Origin: Oscillospiraceae bacterium
GTDB taxonomy: Bacteria > Bacillota > Clostridia > Oscillospirales > Oscillospiraceae
DNA length: 64,000 bases
Assembly (NCBI GenBank): GCA_021202845.1
Contig: JAJQCF010000022.1
Span: 119,197-183,196 of the forward strand
Direction of reading: 5' to 3'
The notes under the pieces are model-generated. The model had not been told where the DNA came from. It saw only the letters and a program-made list of their open reading frames with translations, and ran no database searches. Numbering within the stretch: the stretch's first letter is position 1; each line of letters begins with the position of its first letter. Both the position numbers and the translations under genes were made by a program. Positions 14,795-28,543 of the stretch are shown here, piece by piece.

Positions 14795-15670
14795 ATGGAA
14801 TGTGTAATAATTGAGCAGAGCGAGGAACTTATGCGGGAGACAAGCCGTCTCTGCCGCGAGAGCGGTCTGCCTGTGGCGGCGGAGTTCACCGACGCGCTGG
14901 AGGGCTTGGAGTACCTGCAGTCGCACAGCGTGGATTTAGCGCTCATCTCGTGGTGCATGACAGGCATAGACGGCCCCATGCTGGGCAAGTTAGTGAAAAA
15001 ATTAGTGCCGCAGACGCGGGTTATCTATCTCTCCGACGAGGCGGTGGAGGCGGAGGAGGTCTACGAAACCGAGGCCTTCGGCTATCTGCGCCGCCCCGCG
15101 GACACGAAGAAGCTGCGCCACTATGTCTCTCTTGCCGAGCGTGCCTCGCGCCGTGGCTCGCCGTCCGCGTCCAATCCGGAGCCGCCGATTATAGAGCGCA
15201 AGGAGACGGAGCGCGAGGTTGTAATACGCACATTCGGCCACTTCGACGTTTATGTGGACAGCAAGCCCCTGTTTTTCCCCAACCGCAGGGCCAAGGAGAT
15301 GCTGGCAATGCTGGTGGACTGTCAGGGCGCGGTGATGACGCGCGAGCATTTTTTGGAGCGCTTCTGGCCGGATTCGCCGGTGACGGAGCAGCGCAAGTCC
15401 ATTTACCGCAAGGCGTCCTCCGTGCTCCAGCAGACCCTCGCGCGCAGCGGCGTGAGCTATATCCTGTTCTCCAACCGCCGCCAGAAGGCGCTGAACACCG
15501 CCGCGGTCTGGTGCGACTACTACGAGTTCCTAAACGGCGCCGCCGCCGCGCTGGACTCCTACCGCGGCGAGTACATGATAGACTACACATGGGCCGAAGC
15601 CACCAACGGCCGCCTCTGGCAGATGTCGGGGTACTGGGAGGAAGAGGAAAGCGCAACAAAGTGGGAGTAA
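14795..15670 (+). CDS. Atypical response regulator with SARP/OmpR-like winged helix
   Basis: 291 residues from the ATG at 14795 (a GTG at 14786 is possible). Residues 1-115 have the receiver fold, but the phosphorylation site is altered: the DLALISWCMTGIDG segment has Ser52 where Asp is expected, the acidic pocket reads E7-Q8-S9, and the conserved Lys is Arg100 (YLRRP). Residues 145-230 look like the winged helix seen before BTAD domains in SARP-type regulators ('IRTFGHFDVYVDSKPLFF', 'RRAKEMLAMLVD'), followed by a short tail rather than a full BTAD. It should bind DNA independently of aspartyl phosphorylation. Targets are unknown; the Gly/Met-rich gene is adjacent. Confidence 0.8.
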   Translation: MECVIIEQSEELMRETSRLCRESGLPVAAEFTDALEGLEYLQSHSVDLALISWCMTGIDGPMLGKLVKKLVPQTRVIYLSDEAVEAEEVYETEAFGYLRRPADTKKLRHYVSLAERASRRGSPSASNPEPPIIERKETEREVVIRTFGHFDVYVDSKPLFFPNRRAKEMLAMLVDCQGAVMTREHFLERFWPDSPVTEQRKSIYRKASSVLQQTLARSGVSYILFSNRRQKALNTAAVWCDYYEFLNGAAAALDSYRGEYMIDYTWAEATNGRLWQMSGYWEEEESATKWE

Positions 15671-15727
15671 ACTAAGCACCGATTTAAGTCGGAGCGCGTA
15701 GTTTTATTCGAGTGATTTATTTACTTA

Positions 15728-15799
15728 TAGCCATAGCTTTAGTTTTATTTATAGTTTTAGCTTTATCTATAGTTATAGTCTTAGCTTTATTTTTATAAG
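15728..15799. repeat. 12-copy degenerate hexamer array (TAGYTT-like)
   Basis: A TAG or TAT triplet recurs exactly every six bases at 15728, 15734, 15740 and so on to 15794. The units read tagcca, tagctt, tagttt, tattta, tagttt, tagctt, tatcta, tagtta, tagtct, tagctt, tatttt, tataag. The array is strongly AT-rich in a GC-rich genome and sits about 420 bp upstream of the DnaA-box cluster. It encodes no sensible protein in the sense direction. Confidence 0.85.
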
Positions 15800-16072
15800 G
15801 TTAGACTTAGGTTTTTGTGCGGCGTTTTTTGCGTCAGGCAATTTCTTGCTTGGGAATCGGCGCGGTTTGAGAGAGCGGGAGAGCGGCAGGTAATCGCTGA
15901 AACGCCTGCGGCGGGCGGCGTTTTCGGATTTGGGCGTGTAATGCGCGGCTGCCATATGCTGAGCTGTTGAAAAGCGTATGATTGCTGTAAACTGCTGCCA
16001 TGCTGCCGTGCGGAAAGATTTTAGTTTCCTGCGGTTTTCCCGCGCTTTCCGCCGAAATATTTTAATAATCAT
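15773..16072 (-). CDS. Possible small, very basic protein (doubtful)
   Basis: 99 residues with many Arg/Lys throughout (e.g. KIFRRKARENRRKLKS); no membrane helix and no family recognised. Points for it are GAGGAG seven bases before the ATG and, further upstream on the same strand, TTGACA (16161-16166) spaced 17 bases from TAATCG. Points against are that codon usage is only partly like its neighbours, the gene ends inside the hexamer array, and basic frames arise by chance in GC-rich DNA. Confidence 0.25.
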   Translation of the reverse strand: MIIKIFRRKARENRRKLKSFRTAAWQQFTAIIRFSTAQHMAAAHYTPKSENAARRRRFSDYLPLSRSLKPRRFPSKKLPDAKNAAQKPKSNLIKIKLRL

Positions 16073-16221
16073 TTGTTTTCTCCTCGTTTTCCGCCGTTCG
16101 CGTTTATTTTCGCGGGCGGCATTTTTATCTGTACTTACGATTACGTGAAAACGCGCGAATTGTCAAGGGGTTTTCAGCGCAAAATTTCAAGAAAATCGGC
16201 CTGTAAAATGTCGGTAAATTA

Positions 16222-16275
16222 TTATCAACAGCTTTTCAACAGATTATCCACATACTTTCCACAGAGTTTTCAACA
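16222..16275 (+). promoter_or_regulatory. Cluster of five phased DnaA-box-like sites
   Basis: Five 9-mers in the same orientation: TTATCAACA (16222), TTTTCAACA (16233), TTATCCACA (16244, a perfect DnaA box), CTTTCCACA (16255) and TTTTCAACA (16267). Start-to-start distances are 11, 11, 11 and 12 bp, placing the boxes on one face of the helix with 2-3 bp gaps. The spacing and shared orientation resemble arrays that load DnaA filaments at origins. No dnaA or dnaN is nearby, so a DnaA-controlled promoter or titration site for sigK is more likely than the chromosomal origin. Confidence 0.75.
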
Positions 16276-16398: not shown

Positions 16399-17091
16399 AT
16401 GCTTAGCACAGCGTTCATGCTCTTTCTTGCGCACGCCTTTTTCACGCTGCGGCTGGGGAACGGGCAGTCGGGTTCTTTTCCGCGGCCGCTCTCCGCGGCG
16501 GAGGAGCGGGAGTATGTTAGCCGGTGGGTGGACGGCGGCGACATGGAAGCGCGGAACAAGCTCATCGAGCACAATCTGCGGCTTGTGGCGCACATAATGA
16601 AAAAATATTACACCTCGGCCTCAGAGCAGGAGGATTTGATATCCATAGGCACAATCGGCCTCATAAAGGGAGTTTCTACATATCGCCCCGACAAAAACGT
16701 CCACCTTGCCACGTATGCGAGCAGGTGCATTGAAAATGAAATCCTCATGCACTTCCGCAGCCAGAAAAAGTCTGCCGGAGACGTCAGCCTGTCGGAGGCG
16801 CTGGACACCGACGCGGACGGCAGCAGCCTTTCAATTATGGACGTTCTTGCCGACGACGAGGATATGCTTGAGCAGCTCAGCGTACAGGAGGCGGCGGAGC
16901 GGGTGCGGCGGTGTGTGGACAGTGTGCTGGAGCCGCGCGAGGCGGAGATAATAAAGCTGCGCTACGGCCTTGTCGGAGGCAGCCCGCTTACCCAGCGCGA
17001 GACCGCCCAGCGCTGCGGAATAAGCCGCAGCTATGTTTCACGTATCGAGAAAAAAGCGCTGGATAAGCTCAGACAGGCGCTGGGGGATTGA
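16399..17091 (+). CDS. sigK: Sporulation sigma factor sigma-K
   Basis: 230 residues, start set by GGAGG ten bases upstream of the ATG. The first ~20 residues (MLSTAFMLFLAHAFF...) match the hydrophobic pro-sequence type of pro-sigma-K, which is removed by an intramembrane protease in the mother cell. Region 2 reads RNKLIEHNLRLVAHI...EDLISIGTIGLIKG and CIENEILMH, and region 4 has RETAQRCGISRSYVSRIEKKAL, all close to Bacillus SigK. The coding frame is uninterrupted, with no skin-type element. It directs late mother-cell transcription for coat and cortex, so the organism is probably a spore former. Confidence 0.93.
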   Translation: MLSTAFMLFLAHAFFTLRLGNGQSGSFPRPLSAAEEREYVSRWVDGGDMEARNKLIEHNLRLVAHIMKKYYTSASEQEDLISIGTIGLIKGVSTYRPDKNVHLATYASRCIENEILMHFRSQKKSAGDVSLSEALDTDADGSSLSIMDVLADDEDMLEQLSVQEAAERVRRCVDSVLEPREAEIIKLRYGLVGGSPLTQRETAQRCGISRSYVSRIEKKALDKLRQALGD

Positions 17092-21699: not shown

Positions 21700-21796
21700 C
21701 AATTTTTACACCCGAAAATTAAACTTAAAACGTATGGCGGCGGCCGAGCTGCGTTAGGCCGTGCCATATAGATTATTTTTTGAAAGGGAAAAACAG

Positions 21797-24700
21797 ATGA
21801 ACGCAAAAAGAAGAGGAATTGCAATGCTTCTGGCAATCCTGATGTGCTTCTCGATGCTGCCTACCTCGCTGGCGGCTGACGAAACGCAGACGGATAGTGA
21901 GACCGCGGAGAACCTCGTCGTTACATTTGAAACCGACGAGCATACCACGGTTGACCTCTACTACTCGAAAGACAATTATGAAACAGCAGACGAAACAGAT
22001 GTGACCTCCGCGTATGTGCGCGGCAAGGGTTCAACCGAAATTGACAACTCCGGCGACGGACAGGTCAACTTCAAGGTGAACGCGGACGAGGGCTACACCT
22101 ATACAATCGAAGTTGACCCTGAGACCGGTTACAACAACTGCAAGGGCGAGGACGAAACAGGCGCCGCCGACATCTGGCGCATCACCAAGATTTCTTCCGA
22201 CCTGACGGTGACAATCACCTCCGCCGCTGAGAGCAGTGAGGGCGAGGACACGGAAAGCGGCGAGGCTTCCGCGACAGCTGCCACTATTTTGTACACAAAC
22301 GACGTACATACCTATATTGACGAGGACATTACCTACTCCCTCGCAGCCGGTTATCGTGACACGCTGGAAAATGTTCTGCTGGTTGACGCAGGCGACCATG
22401 TGCAGGGCACAGCATACGGCGGAATGGATAACGGTCAAACTATAATAGAGCTGATGAACGCCGCGGGCTATGACCTTGCCACGCTGGGCAACCATGAGTT
22501 TGACTACGGCATGGACGGCGCAATGAACGCCATTGAGTGGGCGGACTTCCCCTATGTCTCCTGCAACTTCTACCATGAATCAAACGGAGTTGCCGGTGAT
22601 TTGGTGCTGGACGCTTACAAGGTTTTTGAAGTGAACGGCATTTCGATTGCCTTCGTGGGCATTACAACGCCGGAGAGCTTTACGAAATCCACACCGAAAT
22701 ATTTTCAGGATAATGACGGAAACTACATTTACGGTATCGCGGGCGGCGAGGACGGCGAAGAGCTTTACGAGTATGTTCAAAAAGCCATAGACGCCGCCTC
22801 CGAAGAGGCCGACTATGTTATCGCGCTTGGCCACCTTGGCGACGCGGCAAGCTCCTCTCCTTGGACAAGCGAGGAGGTCATTGCCAACACCACCGGCCTT
22901 GACGCCTTTATCGACGGCCATTCCCACAGCACCGTTGAAATGAAAACCATAGCGGACAAGGACGGCAACGCTGTTGTCCTGACGCAGACCGGTTCTTACT
23001 TCAAAGCTCTCGGTCAAATGACTATCTCCGAGGACGGAACAATCACTACCGAGCTGCTCGATGCCGATGACCTTGCAGACGTTGAAAAGAACGCGGAGGT
23101 CGAGGCCATTGAAGAGGCTTGGATTGCCGATGTTGACGAACAGCTCGGCGAGAAGATTGCCGAGACCGACATTGACTTCACGGTGTATTACGAAGACACC
23201 GGCAGCCGCGCAGTACGCAAGAGCGAGACCAATATGGGCGACTTGAACGCAGACGCTTATTATTGGTACATCAACGAAAAAGAGGGCTTGGACTGCGACT
23301 TGGCCGTTATGAACGGCGGCGGTGTCCGCGCCAGCATAGATGCGGGCGATTGGACATACCTCAGCTGCAAGACGGTGAATACCTTCGGCAACGTGCTGTG
23401 CGTCGTCGAGGTCAGCGGACAGTCCATTCTGGACGCGCTGGAGTTCGGCGCGCGCTTCACGCCCGACGCCGAGTGCGGCGGGTTCCTGCAGATTGCCGGA
23501 GCCAGCTATGAAATAGATACCAGCATAGCCAATACCGTGCAGGTAGACGACAAGAGCGTCTGGACAGGCGCTCCCACCGGCGACTACCGCGTTACTAATG
23601 TTAAGATTTACAACAAGGAAACAGGCGAGTATGAGGCGCTGGAGCTTGACAAGACCTACACAATCGCGGGCACAAACTACACGCTCCGCGACTGCGGCGA
23701 CGGCTTTGATATGTTTGGCGACAGCGTGCTTGTTAAGGACTATATTACCGAGGATTACCTCGCGCTGGCTGCCTACCTCCAGTCCTTCGCGGACAGCGAC
23801 GGCAACGGCTATGCCGACGTTTCCACCGAAAACAGCCCCCTCGCTGCCTATGAGGGCTATCTGTTGGATTATGAGAGCAGCACCGGCGCCGGACGCATTA
23901 CCAATATAACCGGCGCAGATAAATGGGCTCCGACCGACCTCGTTGTGAACATCGGCGCGACAGAGGACAGCATCAGCGTGGTTTGGTATGACACCAGCGC
24001 CAATGCCGGAACGCTGACATTCGGCGGAACCGATTACACGGCAAGCGTTTCCGCGGCGCAGCGCGAGGGCTATTACGTCAACCGCGTGACGCTCTCCGGC
24101 CTCACCGCGGAGACAGACTACAGATACACCATTACCTCCGGCGACGGCGAGAATTCCGAGACTTATACTTACACAACCGCCGCTTTCGGCGACGGCGAGG
24201 AATTCAGCTTTGCCATCGTCGGCGACCCGCAGATTGGCGCGAGCGGCAATGCCGACAGCGACACCGAGGGCTGGGCAGCGGCTGTCGAGGCCATGCTCTC
24301 TGACGGCACGAGCTACAGCTTCCTGTTCTCAATGGGCGACCAAGTCAACTCCTACTACAAGGCCGACGCCAGCAACAGCGCGGCGGTTGAGAGCGAGTAT
24401 GACGGTTATCTGAGCGCCGCAGGTCTCAGCGGCATAGCAATGGCGACTATAGTCGGCAACCACGACGCGGGCGGCAACACCACGGCTTATTCCGACCACT
24501 TCGCAATGCCGAATGTCTCCGATTACGGCAAGGCGCTCAACGACAACTACAGCGCGGGTTATCTCGGCGATGCTGCGGCCACAGTCGATTCCGACGGCGC
24601 GGCTGACTACTACTTCACCTACAACGGCGTGCTGTTCATGGTCCTGAACTCCAGCAACGAGTCCATTGCCGAGCACAAGGAGTTCATGGAAAAGACAATA

Positions 24701-27700
24701 GAGGCTAACCCCGACGTCAACTGGACGGTGGTTGCCTTCCATAAGTCCATTTACTCGGTAGCGAGCCACGTCACGGAGAGCGACATAGAAACTCTGCGCA
24801 ACGGACTTTCCCCGATATTCGCAGACCTCGGCATAGACCTTGTGCTGCAAGGCCACGACCACGTTTACGCCCGCAGCTACGTTATGGGCGGCACGACCGG
24901 CATGGAAGCACAGGTAACTGACGAGGCGGAAACCGACATCTACAACGCCGACGGCGTAGTGTACGTGACCTTCAACTCCGCCTCCGGCAGCAAGTTCTAC
25001 AACATCACAAACGAAGCGTTCACCTACACCGCTGTGCAGAATCAGGAAAAGGTTGCCAACTACTCTACCGCCACCGTGACGGAGGACAGCTTCACCGTGA
25101 CGACCTACCGCGTGACCGACGGCTCTGTTGTGGACACCTTCACTCTGCACAAGGGCGCTGAAGCCGAGTGGGCTCCGACCGACCTCGTTGTGAACATCGG
25201 CGCAACTGAGGACAGCATCAGCGTGGTTTGGTACGACACCAGCGCCAATGCCGGAACGCTGACGTTCGGCGGCAAAGAGTACACCGCTGATATATCCGCG
25301 GCCTCTCGTGAGGGCTATTACATCAACCGCGTGAGCGTGACCGACCTCCAGCCCTCCACTGATTATACTTATACCATTACCTCCGGAGATGGACTGGTAT
25401 CCCAGACCTACACCTACACTACCACCGCTTTCGGTGAGGGCAAGACGTTCAGCTTCGCCATTGTCGGCGACCCGCAGATAGGCGCGAGCGGCAATGCCGA
25501 CAGCGACATTGTGGGCTGGAACACCGCGGTTAATACCATTCTCTCCAACGGCACGGCCTATAGCTTTCTGTTCTCAATGGGCGACCAAGTCAACGCATAC
25601 TACGGCGAAAGCTCGGAGTACGCAGGCTACAGCGCCGCTCTGACCGCCGCTATAGAAGCCTATGATGAGAGCACGGACGGCGAGTATATCGCCTATCTCG
25701 TCACCGCGCTGGGCATGAGCGGAACGGGATATGAGGAGTACATTACAAATGCGCTCCAGAGCGTCGAGCTTGCCAAAGACACCACGGATGTAGCGCTCAT
25801 TTTAAAAACCATGGGCATCTCCGGCAACAACGGGGATGATGTTGAAGCCGAGTATGACGGGTATCTCTCCCCGACAGGCCTCAGCGGCATAGCAATGGCG
25901 ACCATAGTCGGCAACCATGACGCCGGCAACGACAACTCCGCGCTCTACACCGACCACTACTCCATGCCCAACGTCACGGAGTACGGCGAGAATCAGGAGG
26001 GCGACGGCGACTACTACTTCACCTATAACGGCGTGCTGTTCATGGTGCTGAACTCCAGCAACCTCTCCATTGCCGAGCACAAGACCTTCCTTGAGGAGAC
26101 GATGGAAGCCAACCCCGACGCCACTTGGAATGTTGTCGCCTTCCATAAGTCCATTTACTCCGTAGCGAGCCACGTAACGGAGAGCGATATTGAGGCTCTG
26201 CGCCTCGGACTTGCTCCGATATTCGTTGACCTCGGCATAGACATCGTTCTCCAAGGCCACGACCACGTTTATGCCCGCAGCTACGTCATGGGCGGCGCGA
26301 ACGGCATGACGGCGCTGGACACCGAGAACGGCGCGCAGAGCGACATTTATAATGCCGACGGCGTAGTGTACGTAACCTTCAACTCCGCCTCCGGCAGCAA
26401 GTTCTACAACATCACAAACGAAGCGTTCACCTACACCGCTGTGCAGAATCAGGAAAAGGTTGCCAACTACTCTACCGCCACCGTGACGGAGGACAGCTTC
26501 ACCGTGACGACCTACCGCGTGACCGACGGTTCCGTTGTGGATACCTTTACCCTGCACAAGAGCGATGAGCAGAGCGAGAGCGTCACTCCGCCCGAGGGCG
26601 ACGTAAAGATAGCGGTTATCTCCGACGACCACCTCTATGATACCACGCTCGGCGCCAGCGGCTCCGCGTTCGAGGCGTATCTGGCAGGCGACAGAAAGCT
26701 GCTCGCCGAGAGCGAAGCGATTTTGGACTCCGCGCTGGCGACCATAGCGGAGAGCGGCGTTGATTACCTGCTCATTTCCGGCGACCTCACTAAGGACGGA
26801 GAGCGCCAGAACCATGAACTGCTGGCGGAAAAGCTGACCGCGTTCGAGGCGGAAACCGGCATCAGTGTGTTCGTCATCAACGGCAACCACGACATATCCA
26901 ACAGCAATGCCGTCAGCTTCGACGGCGACACCACCACGAGAGTGGAGACGATAGACACCGACGACTTCCGCACGATTTACGCCGACTTCGGCTACAGCGA
27001 GGCAGTTGCGGTTGACACGAACTCCCTGTCCTACGCCGTCAACCTCGGCGACGACTACCGCCTGATTGTCATTGACAGCTGCAAGTACAACGACGACAAG
27101 GACAACCCCTCGCAGGAGACCGGCGGCGAGATAGACGACGCGACCATGACTTGGGTCCTCGCGCAGATAAAAGCCGCCGTTCAGGACGGCAGACGCCCCA
27201 TAGGCATGATGCACCACGGCCTTGTCTCCCACACCGACATTGAGCCGGAGATGTTCTCCGAGTACCTTGTTGACGACTACGAAACCGTTGCCGCAACTCT
27301 GGCGGATGCGGGTCTGAACTTGGTGTTCACCGGCCACTTCCACTCTCAGGATGTCGCCGTGACGACGACGGACAGCGGCAGCACGCTCTACGATGTGGAG
27401 ACCGGCTCCCTCGTCACCAGCCCCTGCCCGATACGCTATGTCTCCCTCACCGGCAGCACGTTCAGCTACACCACCGACCATGTGACCGAGGCCGAGGGCA
27501 TAGACAACTTTGCCGAGTATGCGGACGAGTTCCTTATGAACGGCCTGCTCGGTCTGACCGCCGGCTACAAGGCAATTTCCGTGACACTGTACGGCACGAC
27601 CTACACGGCGGACGAGCTGCTTGCCGAGGGCTTCGCGGCCCACTACGCCGGAGCCGAGCAGATTGACTACAAGACGCAGAAGATTATAGCTGCCTGCGCC

Positions 27701-28543
27701 GAGGCCGCGGCGGCAGCCGATAATGAGACAATGGCTTACTACTACAACCTCTTGGCCTCGGCGCTCACCGCGCTTTACACCGACAGCGAGGGCGACGACC
27801 TTGAGGCCGCGGCTCTGACGCTCACCGCGCTGCCGAGCTACTCCAGCGGCAGCTCCGGCTCCGGCTCCGGCTCCGGCCACGCCAGCAGCTCCACCAACAC
27901 GACTACGACCACGACGACAACCGACACGACTGCCGACACCGAGATTACTGCGGAGGATGTCAAGGCGGCGCTTAGCATTGAGGTCTCCGACAGCACCGTG
28001 GAAACGCTGCTTGGCCTGACAGACGTGGCGCTGGACGGCTACTACTACGACGCTCTTGCTTGGGCAGTGGAGAACGGCGTTACCACCGGCACGAGCGACA
28101 CTACGTTCTCACCCAACATAGGCTGCACCCGCGCGCAGGTTGTCACGTTCCTTTACCGCGCGGCTGGCTCTCCGGAGGTCGAGAACGGCGCAGTCAACCC
28201 CTTCACTGACGTTGACAGCGATGCCTACTACTGCAGTGCAGTGCTGTGGGCAGTGCAGCAGGGAATAACCCTCGGCACGAGCGAGACAACGTTCAGCCCC
28301 GACGACGTATGCACCCGCGCACAGATAGTCACGTTCCTCTATCGCGCGGCAGGCTCTCCGGAGGTTGATGACAGCGCTGACAGTACCTTCACCGATGTCA
28401 GCAGCAGCGCTTACTACTGCAGCGCGGTGCTGTGGGCGGCACAGCAGGGAATTACTCTCGGCACGAGCGAGACGACATTCTCCCCCGACGACGACTGCAC
28501 CCGTGCGCAGATAGTTACATTCCTGTTCCGCTACATGGCGTAA
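21797..28543 (+). CDS. Giant SLH surface protein with four metallophosphoesterase domains
   Basis: 2,248 residues from the ATG at 21797 (GAAAGGGA upstream). A signal peptide ends near residue 28 (LPTSLAAD). Domain order: (1) UshA-type 5'-nucleotidase, metal-site motifs TNDVHTYID, DAGDHVQG, GNHEFD and GHSHS (about 162-440), with its C-terminal substrate domain (about 453-640; MNGGGVRAS); (2) and (3) two tandem purple-acid-phosphatase-like units, each an Fn3-like domain (APTDLVVNIGATEDSISVVW) plus phosphoesterase (VGDPQIGAS, MGDQVN, VGNHDAG, LQGHDHVYAR), about 710-1121 and 1125-1588; (4) an Icc/3',5'-nucleotidase-like phosphoesterase (ISDDHLYD, SGDLTKDG, NGNHD, GHFHSQ; 1603-1895). A Ser/Gly/Thr linker and three SLH repeats (2078-2248) attach it to secondary cell-wall polymer. 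It probably scavenges phosphate from nucleotides and phosphoesters at the surface. Confidence 0.92.
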   Translation: MNAKRRGIAMLLAILMCFSMLPTSLAADETQTDSETAENLVVTFETDEHTTVDLYYSKDNYETADETDVTSAYVRGKGSTEIDNSGDGQVNFKVNADEGYTYTIEVDPETGYNNCKGEDETGAADIWRITKISSDLTVTITSAAESSEGEDTESGEASATAATILYTNDVHTYIDEDITYSLAAGYRDTLENVLLVDAGDHVQGTAYGGMDNGQTIIELMNAAGYDLATLGNHEFDYGMDGAMNAIEWADFPYVSCNFYHESNGVAGDLVLDAYKVFEVNGISIAFVGITTPESFTKSTPKYFQDNDGNYIYGIAGGEDGEELYEYVQKAIDAASEEADYVIALGHLGDAASSSPWTSEEVIANTTGLDAFIDGHSHSTVEMKTIADKDGNAVVLTQTGSYFKALGQMTISEDGTITTELLDADDLADVEKNAEVEAIEEAWIADVDEQLGEKIAETDIDFTVYYEDTGSRAVRKSETNMGDLNADAYYWYINEKEGLDCDLAVMNGGGVRASIDAGDWTYLSCKTVNTFGNVLCVVEVSGQSILDALEFGARFTPDAECGGFLQIAGASYEIDTSIANTVQVDDKSVWTGAPTGDYRVTNVKIYNKETGEYEALELDKTYTIAGTNYTLRDCGDGFDMFGDSVLVKDYITEDYLALAAYLQSFADSDGNGYADVSTENSPLAAYEGYLLDYESSTGAGRITNITGADKWAPTDLVVNIGATEDSISVVWYDTSANAGTLTFGGTDYTASVSAAQREGYYVNRVTLSGLTAETDYRYTITSGDGENSETYTYTTAAFGDGEEFSFAIVGDPQIGASGNADSDTEGWAAAVEAMLSDGTSYSFLFSMGDQVNSYYKADASNSAAVESEYDGYLSAAGLSGIAMATIVGNHDAGGNTTAYSDHFAMPNVSDYGKALNDNYSAGYLGDAAATVDSDGAADYYFTYNGVLFMVLNSSNESIAEHKEFMEKTIEANPDVNWTVVAFHKSIYSVASHVTESDIETLRNGLSPIFADLGIDLVLQGHDHVYARSYVMGGTTGMEAQVTDEAETDIYNADGVVYVTFNSASGSKFYNITNEAFTYTAVQNQEKVANYSTATVTEDSFTVTTYRVTDGSVVDTFTLHKGAEAEWAPTDLVVNIGATEDSISVVWYDTSANAGTLTFGGKEYTADISAASREGYYINRVSVTDLQPSTDYTYTITSGDGLVSQTYTYTTTAFGEGKTFSFAIVGDPQIGASGNADSDIVGWNTAVNTILSNGTAYSFLFSMGDQVNAYYGESSEYAGYSAALTAAIEAYDESTDGEYIAYLVTALGMSGTGYEEYITNALQSVELAKDTTDVALILKTMGISGNNGDDVEAEYDGYLSPTGLSGIAMATIVGNHDAGNDNSALYTDHYSMPNVTEYGENQEGDGDYYFTYNGVLFMVLNSSNLSIAEHKTFLEETMEANPDATWNVVAFHKSIYSVASHVTESDIEALRLGLAPIFVDLGIDIVLQGHDHVYARSYVMGGANGMTALDTENGAQSDIYNADGVVYVTFNSASGSKFYNITNEAFTYTAVQNQEKVANYSTATVTEDSFTVTTYRVTDGSVVDTFTLHKSDEQSESVTPPEGDVKIAVISDDHLYDTTLGASGSAFEAYLAGDRKLLAESEAILDSALATIAESGVDYLLISGDLTKDGERQNHELLAEKLTAFEAETGISVFVINGNHDISNSNAVSFDGDTTTRVETIDTDDFRTIYADFGYSEAVAVDTNSLSYAVNLGDDYRLIVIDSCKYNDDKDNPSQETGGEIDDATMTWVLAQIKAAVQDGRRPIGMMHHGLVSHTDIEPEMFSEYLVDDYETVAATLADAGLNLVFTGHFHSQDVAVTTTDSGSTLYDVETGSLVTSPCPIRYVSLTGSTFSYTTDHVTEAEGIDNFAEYADEFLMNGLLGLTAGYKAISVTLYGTTYTADELLAEGFAAHYAGAEQIDYKTQKIIAACAEAAAAADNETMAYYYNLLASALTALYTDSEGDDLEAAALTLTALPSYSSGSSGSGSGSGHASSSTNTTTTTTTTDTTADTEITAEDVKAALSIEVSDSTVETLLGLTDVALDGYYYDALAWAVENGVTTGTSDTTFSPNIGCTRAQVVTFLYRAAGSPEVENGAVNPFTDVDSDAYYCSAVLWAVQQGITLGTSETTFSPDDVCTRAQIVTFLYRAAGSPEVDDSADSTFTDVSSSAYYCSAVLWAAQQGITLGTSETTFSPDDDCTRAQIVTFLFRYMA
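24968..25122 (+). repeat. 155-bp exact repeat, copy 1 (inside phosphoesterase gene)
   Basis: These 155 bases are identical to 26375-26529. They encode the C-terminal end of the first purple-acid-phosphatase-like unit (NSASGSKFYNITNEAF onward). The flanking parts of the two units are only similar, so this stretch was duplicated or homogenised most recently. Confidence 0.9.
26375..26529 (+). repeat. 155-bp exact repeat, copy 2 (inside phosphoesterase gene)
   Basis: Identical to 24968-25122 and encoding the same end region in the second purple-acid-phosphatase-like unit. Copies in direct orientation 1,407 bp apart could recombine in frame to delete one complete unit, because the spacing is a multiple of three. 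Confidence 0.9.

Follow-up and report, generated by a model that had tools for sequence, protein, structure and literature searches.

A phased array of DnaA-box-like sites on a three-copy 0.6-kb repeat in an Oscillospiraceae genome

In an Oscillospiraceae genome, five DnaA-box-like 9-mers lie in helical phase at one end of a repeat that occurs three times, away from dnaA and the chromosomal origin region. We analysed the 64,000-nucleotide stretch of DNA holding one of these copies (contig C12, hereafter the window), together with the rest of the genome and its relatives. The reading we favour, with moderate confidence, is that the repeat is a 0.6-kb cassette, probably phage- or plasmid-derived, which carries a DnaA-box cluster outside oriC and would serve as a DnaA sink, as a control of its own outward-facing promoter, or both.

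The array and the organism's own DnaA boxes

All five 9-mers were read directly on the plus strand: TTATCAACA at 16222-16230, TTTTCAACA at 16233-16241, the perfect box TTATCCACA at 16244-16252, CTTTCCACA at 16255-16263, and TTTTCAACA again at 16267-16275. Together they occupy 54 bp (16222-16275, plus strand) at offsets of 0/11/22/33/45, with start-to-start steps of 11, 11, 11 and 12 bp and gaps of 2, 2, 2 and 3 bp, exactly as a preliminary description of this DNA had placed them. Clusters of five boxes (at most two mismatches, within 57 bp) were found once in 1.38 Mb of the genome (the portion of its 2.24 Mb that was read directly, the remainder being covered by searches only, where weaker clusters may be missed), and were absent from three Markov genomes of 1.38 Mb under the same settings and from 2 Mb of simulated DNA of repeat-like composition. 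Across the whole genome, a pattern of three boxes at 11-bp steps (at most three mismatches) gave seven matches at three places, every one of them a copy of the repeat, and its reversed control gave none. With more boxes than expected by chance and a location away from dnaA, 16222-16275 counts, by its sequence, as a DnaA-box cluster outside oriC.

The preliminary description had noted that dnaA is missing from the window, and the gene indeed lies on another contig (C5). The dnaA-dnaN gap there holds two copies of TTTTCAACA as well as CTTTCCACA and TTTTCCACA; after them comes CCCCTACTACTATTGCTACTA, which closely resembles the C. difficile oriC2 DnaA-trio (PMC7561715). Box variants of the form TTWTCAACA are common to the array and to this region, so the unusual boxes of the array are credible and appear to fit the organism's own DnaA-box vocabulary. 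The box-contacting helix of its DnaA reads RNHATV, compared with RDHTTV in E. coli, and the equivalent of D433 is described as highly conserved among bacteria (PMC8235120). Among 51 genomes examined, the 19 with D433 and T435 have 54 boxes ending in CACA and three ending in AACA, and the nine with N433 and serine or alanine at position 435 have eight and 18, respectively. This pattern is no more than suggestive of a shift in DnaA-box specificity within the Oscillospiraceae involving N433 and S/A435 (E. coli numbering), since the changes of the N433 state are few (four inferred) and the phylogenetic test was underpowered. Across the organism's own dnaA (C5:6952-8445, L009) and the dnaA-dnaN regions of loci L355-L404, DnaA with N433 (and S/A435) is paired with TTTTCAACA boxes, and DnaA with D433 and T435 almost only with boxes ending in CACA.

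Phased boxes on one strand are typical of origins, and an AT-rich tract (15720-15800) lies on the same repeat at 420-500 bp from the array, features in keeping with the suggestion in the preliminary description of an origin-like element. A role for the array as an origin of the chromosome, main or backup, nevertheless seems to us highly improbable. GC skew is equal on its two sides (0.020 to the left and 0.019 to the right over 50 kb) and cumulative skew climbs straight through it, with no minimum there. Reading of the sequence after 16275 revealed no run of CTA-type triplets, and the array is present in three copies, whereas the dnaA-dnaN region has one such run and combines its boxes with a clostridial-type trio that resembles the one in C. 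difficile oriC2. The likeness of the array to clostridial oriC2 (PMC7561715) is in the box variants that it shares with the organism's own dnaA-dnaN region; it differs in having no adjoining DnaA-trio, in its distance from dnaA and in the unchanged skew.

Copies and anatomy of the repeat

The array forms the right end of an interspersed repeat of 608 bp (15668-16275), which was identified by a DNA search of the organism's own genome followed by pairwise alignment. One further copy (C27:232732-233339) is 81% identical to that of the window over 610 aligned columns, and another (C10:94788-95414) is diverged, with partial matches to the window repeat. In the window, the repeat starts at the stop codon that closes the upstream response-regulator gene, and the last box forms its other end. 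The C27 copy sits at the 3' end of mnmG, whose stop codon is contained in the last box (TTTTTAACA), and the C10 copy is placed between a serine recombinase gene and mnmA. Such an occurrence at three unrelated sites with common ends is as for a mobile element or a phage replication module. A comparison of the flanks by eye showed neither terminal inverted repeats nor target duplications, which speaks against a transposon or MITE. Searches of 400 genomes of the family returned only box-matching fragments or short, chance-like stretches of the repeat; plasmid records gave no matches to it, and no Rfam family was found within the window. Exact 17-mer matches of the AT-rich tract in viral contigs were attributed to chance, in view of how large the collection is.

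Individual boxes vary among the three copies, and helical spacing is kept in all of them (0/11/22/33/45 in C12 and C27, 0/11/22/33/44 in C10), a sign that selection has acted to keep the array phased. With spacing retained in three diverged copies and box variants that match those of the organism's own oriC, two proposals of the preliminary description, an array of DnaA-filament type and a DnaA sink, remain plausible. Compared with its C27 counterpart, the C12 copy is 93-97% identical over the left 150 bp and 47-73% identical over the middle, rising again to 78-90% from that point up to the array. In this uneven conservation the tract, the promoter-like site and the box spacing were kept; copies exchanging sequence by gene conversion might produce the same picture.

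The promoter-like site (16138-16166, minus strand) points away from the neighbouring sigK gene and consists of TTGACA at 16161-16166, a spacer of 17 bp and TAATCG at 16138-16143, with its -35 hexamer some 56 bp left of the first box. Its -10 hexamer is weak and a scan with the sigma-70 consensus did not pick it up; its spacer (CGCGTTTTCACG) is unusually conserved, is present in all three copies and could be an operator. A second promoter-like site with a near-identical spacer (TTGACAAATGCCGTGCTTTCATGTAATTT) was observed at C10:94726-94742, just before mnmA and adjoining the C10 copy of the repeat. A match to the promoter motif in an enterobacterial prophage (L214) fell inside a coding gene and was dismissed as chance. 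Beyond the promoter-like site, an inverted repeat (16093-16120, minus strand) would form a leader hairpin directly before a ribosome-binding site (fold z = -3.4 in the C12 copy and -2.0 in the C10 copy), and is also terminator-like on the plus strand. Read in the direction away from sigK, the three copies have in common the TTGACA site, the leader hairpin (folding: C12 and C10), the ribosome-binding site and the hexamer tract. This AT-rich tract has a 6-bp rhythm (YWTAGY), is 93-97% identical between C12 and C27 and is recognisable in C10.

The window copy also contains a 99-codon open frame (15773-16072, minus strand) in the place taken by a DUF6291 gene in the C10 copy. Differences between C12 and C27 fall on the three codon positions without bias (26/23/33), so the frame is probably non-coding, and a coding role was rejected on these counts; it had no Pfam or NCBIfam match. 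The C10 gene encodes a 96-residue DUF6291 protein (39.3 bits against a cut-off of 27.2; PHROG 16304), a phage-type protein that is encoded in only one of the three copies and for which no relatives were confirmed in IMG/VR. No replication initiator, integrase or transposase is located inside the cassette. Elsewhere, DUF6291 genes can have mobile-element surroundings (for example near an integrase-like gene on C28 of the same genome), and those elsewhere in the order are without such arrays; a general pairing of DUF6291 genes with box arrays was not seen in relatives. Some DUF6291 genes continue into dipeptide repeats coded by hexamers, so the AT-rich hexamer tract may be the relic of a tail of this kind.

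These features also bear on a rival explanation, in which the repeat is what is left of a mobile element, now inert, its boxes having once served the element's own replication and now decaying without function. An open frame free of coding constraint, a strongly diverged middle and the overlap of the last C27 box with the mnmG stop codon agree with such a fossil, but the tract, the promoter-like site and the box spacing were kept while the middle drifted, and we regard the fossil explanation as possible yet doubtful.

Neighbouring sigK and similar arrays in phages

The gene that follows the array (16399-17091, plus strand) starts 124 bp after it and was called sigK in the preliminary description, an assignment upheld by NCBIfam NF004471 (268 bits against a cut-off of 252); the score against the stricter equivalog TIGR02846 was 262, below its cut-off of 299. 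Given this proximity, and since B. subtilis DnaA is known to regulate sda, a sporulation gene (PMC4447404), binding of DnaA to the array might control sigK and so tie late sporulation to replication status, as had been proposed. Such regulation seems very unlikely. The repeat that holds the array occurs twice more in the genome, in neither case (C27, C10) upstream of a sporulation gene, its promoter-like site points the opposite way, and a box cluster upstream of sigK was found at none of 80 SigK loci of Oscillospiraceae relatives, all from other genera. The proposed coupling of sporulation to replication through sigK was accordingly set aside, and any effect of the array on sigK is most likely incidental. 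Further along the window, at 21761-28543, we observed an open frame of 2260 residues which, judged from its translation, looks like a secreted protein in which phosphoesterase-type modules recur and SLH-like repeats occupy the C-terminal end.

Similar layouts were found among viruses. Contigs in IMG/VR with three boxes at 11-bp steps often have a fourth and a fifth box, and in many of them the final step is 12 bp long (for example TTATCCACAGGTTATCCACAGGTTATCCACAGAGTTATCCACA), the first two 11-bp steps being fixed by the search pattern, later steps being free and several contigs being near-copies of one another. Two viral contigs (L246 and L263) have offsets of exactly 0/11/22/33/45. Among the genes beside the viral arrays are one for a microvirus replication initiator and others for terminase small subunits. 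At L263, L215 (PQ006258.1) and other viral loci, phased same-strand arrays were observed next to two kinds of gene: the replication gene in microviruses, as in bajarodmic virus 162, where five boxes are directly beside it, and genes for the terminase small subunit in contigs of dsDNA phages. The array of the window resembles those of bajarodmic virus 162, L246 and L263 in its same-strand boxes, 11-bp steps and 12-bp last step; in contrast, the phage boxes are mostly the perfect TTATCCACA, and there is no similarity outside the boxes. The likeness to phages is therefore one of common layout and not of descent, and we make no claim of common descent with microviruses, as similarity is confined to the boxes.

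A putative DnaA sink carried on a cassette

In our preferred reading, the cassette comprises the array, the outward promoter-like site, the leader hairpin, the small frame and the hexamer tract, and its ancestor was probably a replication or regulatory module of phage or plasmid type. DnaA would bind the array cooperatively along one helical face, and the bound array would take up free DnaA, a role proposed for the six B. subtilis clusters outside oriC, and/or control the outward promoter of the cassette. A more elaborate scenario, which we put forward only as a speculative and rather unlikely one, is that the cassette, derived from a phage, has multiplied in the chromosome as a dispersed DnaA sink that copies itself. 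Selection would keep its phased arrays as a buffer for free DnaA, the DnaA of this lineage having shifted its box preference (D433N and T435A in E. coli numbering; TTWTCAACA boxes).

To our knowledge, work on DnaA-box clusters outside oriC has covered few bacteria. The E. coli loci datA and DARS involve IHF or Fis sites and nucleotide exchange or hydrolysis, and the array is likened to them by its boxes alone. All are non-coding DnaA-box clusters outside oriC (general knowledge and PMC5295017). In B. subtilis, the clusters outside oriC are those at gcp/ydiF, sda, ywlC, ywcI/vpr, yydA and trmE (PMC4447404, PMC5295017), and removal of all six leads to early initiation (PMC5295017). They resemble the array in having several DnaA boxes in intergenic DNA away from oriC. 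However, each B. subtilis cluster is a separate intergenic site, whereas here every cluster found is part of a single cassette that is repeated and has a promoter-like site facing outward. As a separate observation, in three loci from other Oscillospiraceae genomes (L338, L348 and L106) the 3' end of tsaD (gcp) is flanked by a box cluster similar to GTTATCCACATTTTCCACAGAGTTTTCCACA. In B. subtilis, too, the 3' end of gcp carries a DnaA-box cluster (PMC4447404). In the genome studied here, tsaD runs directly into radC with no box cluster between them.

Besides the dnaA-dnaN origin region, the only box clusters found in this genome sit on one small repeat, and their layout matches that of phage arrays, which suggests that DnaA sinks may be acquirable as cassettes.
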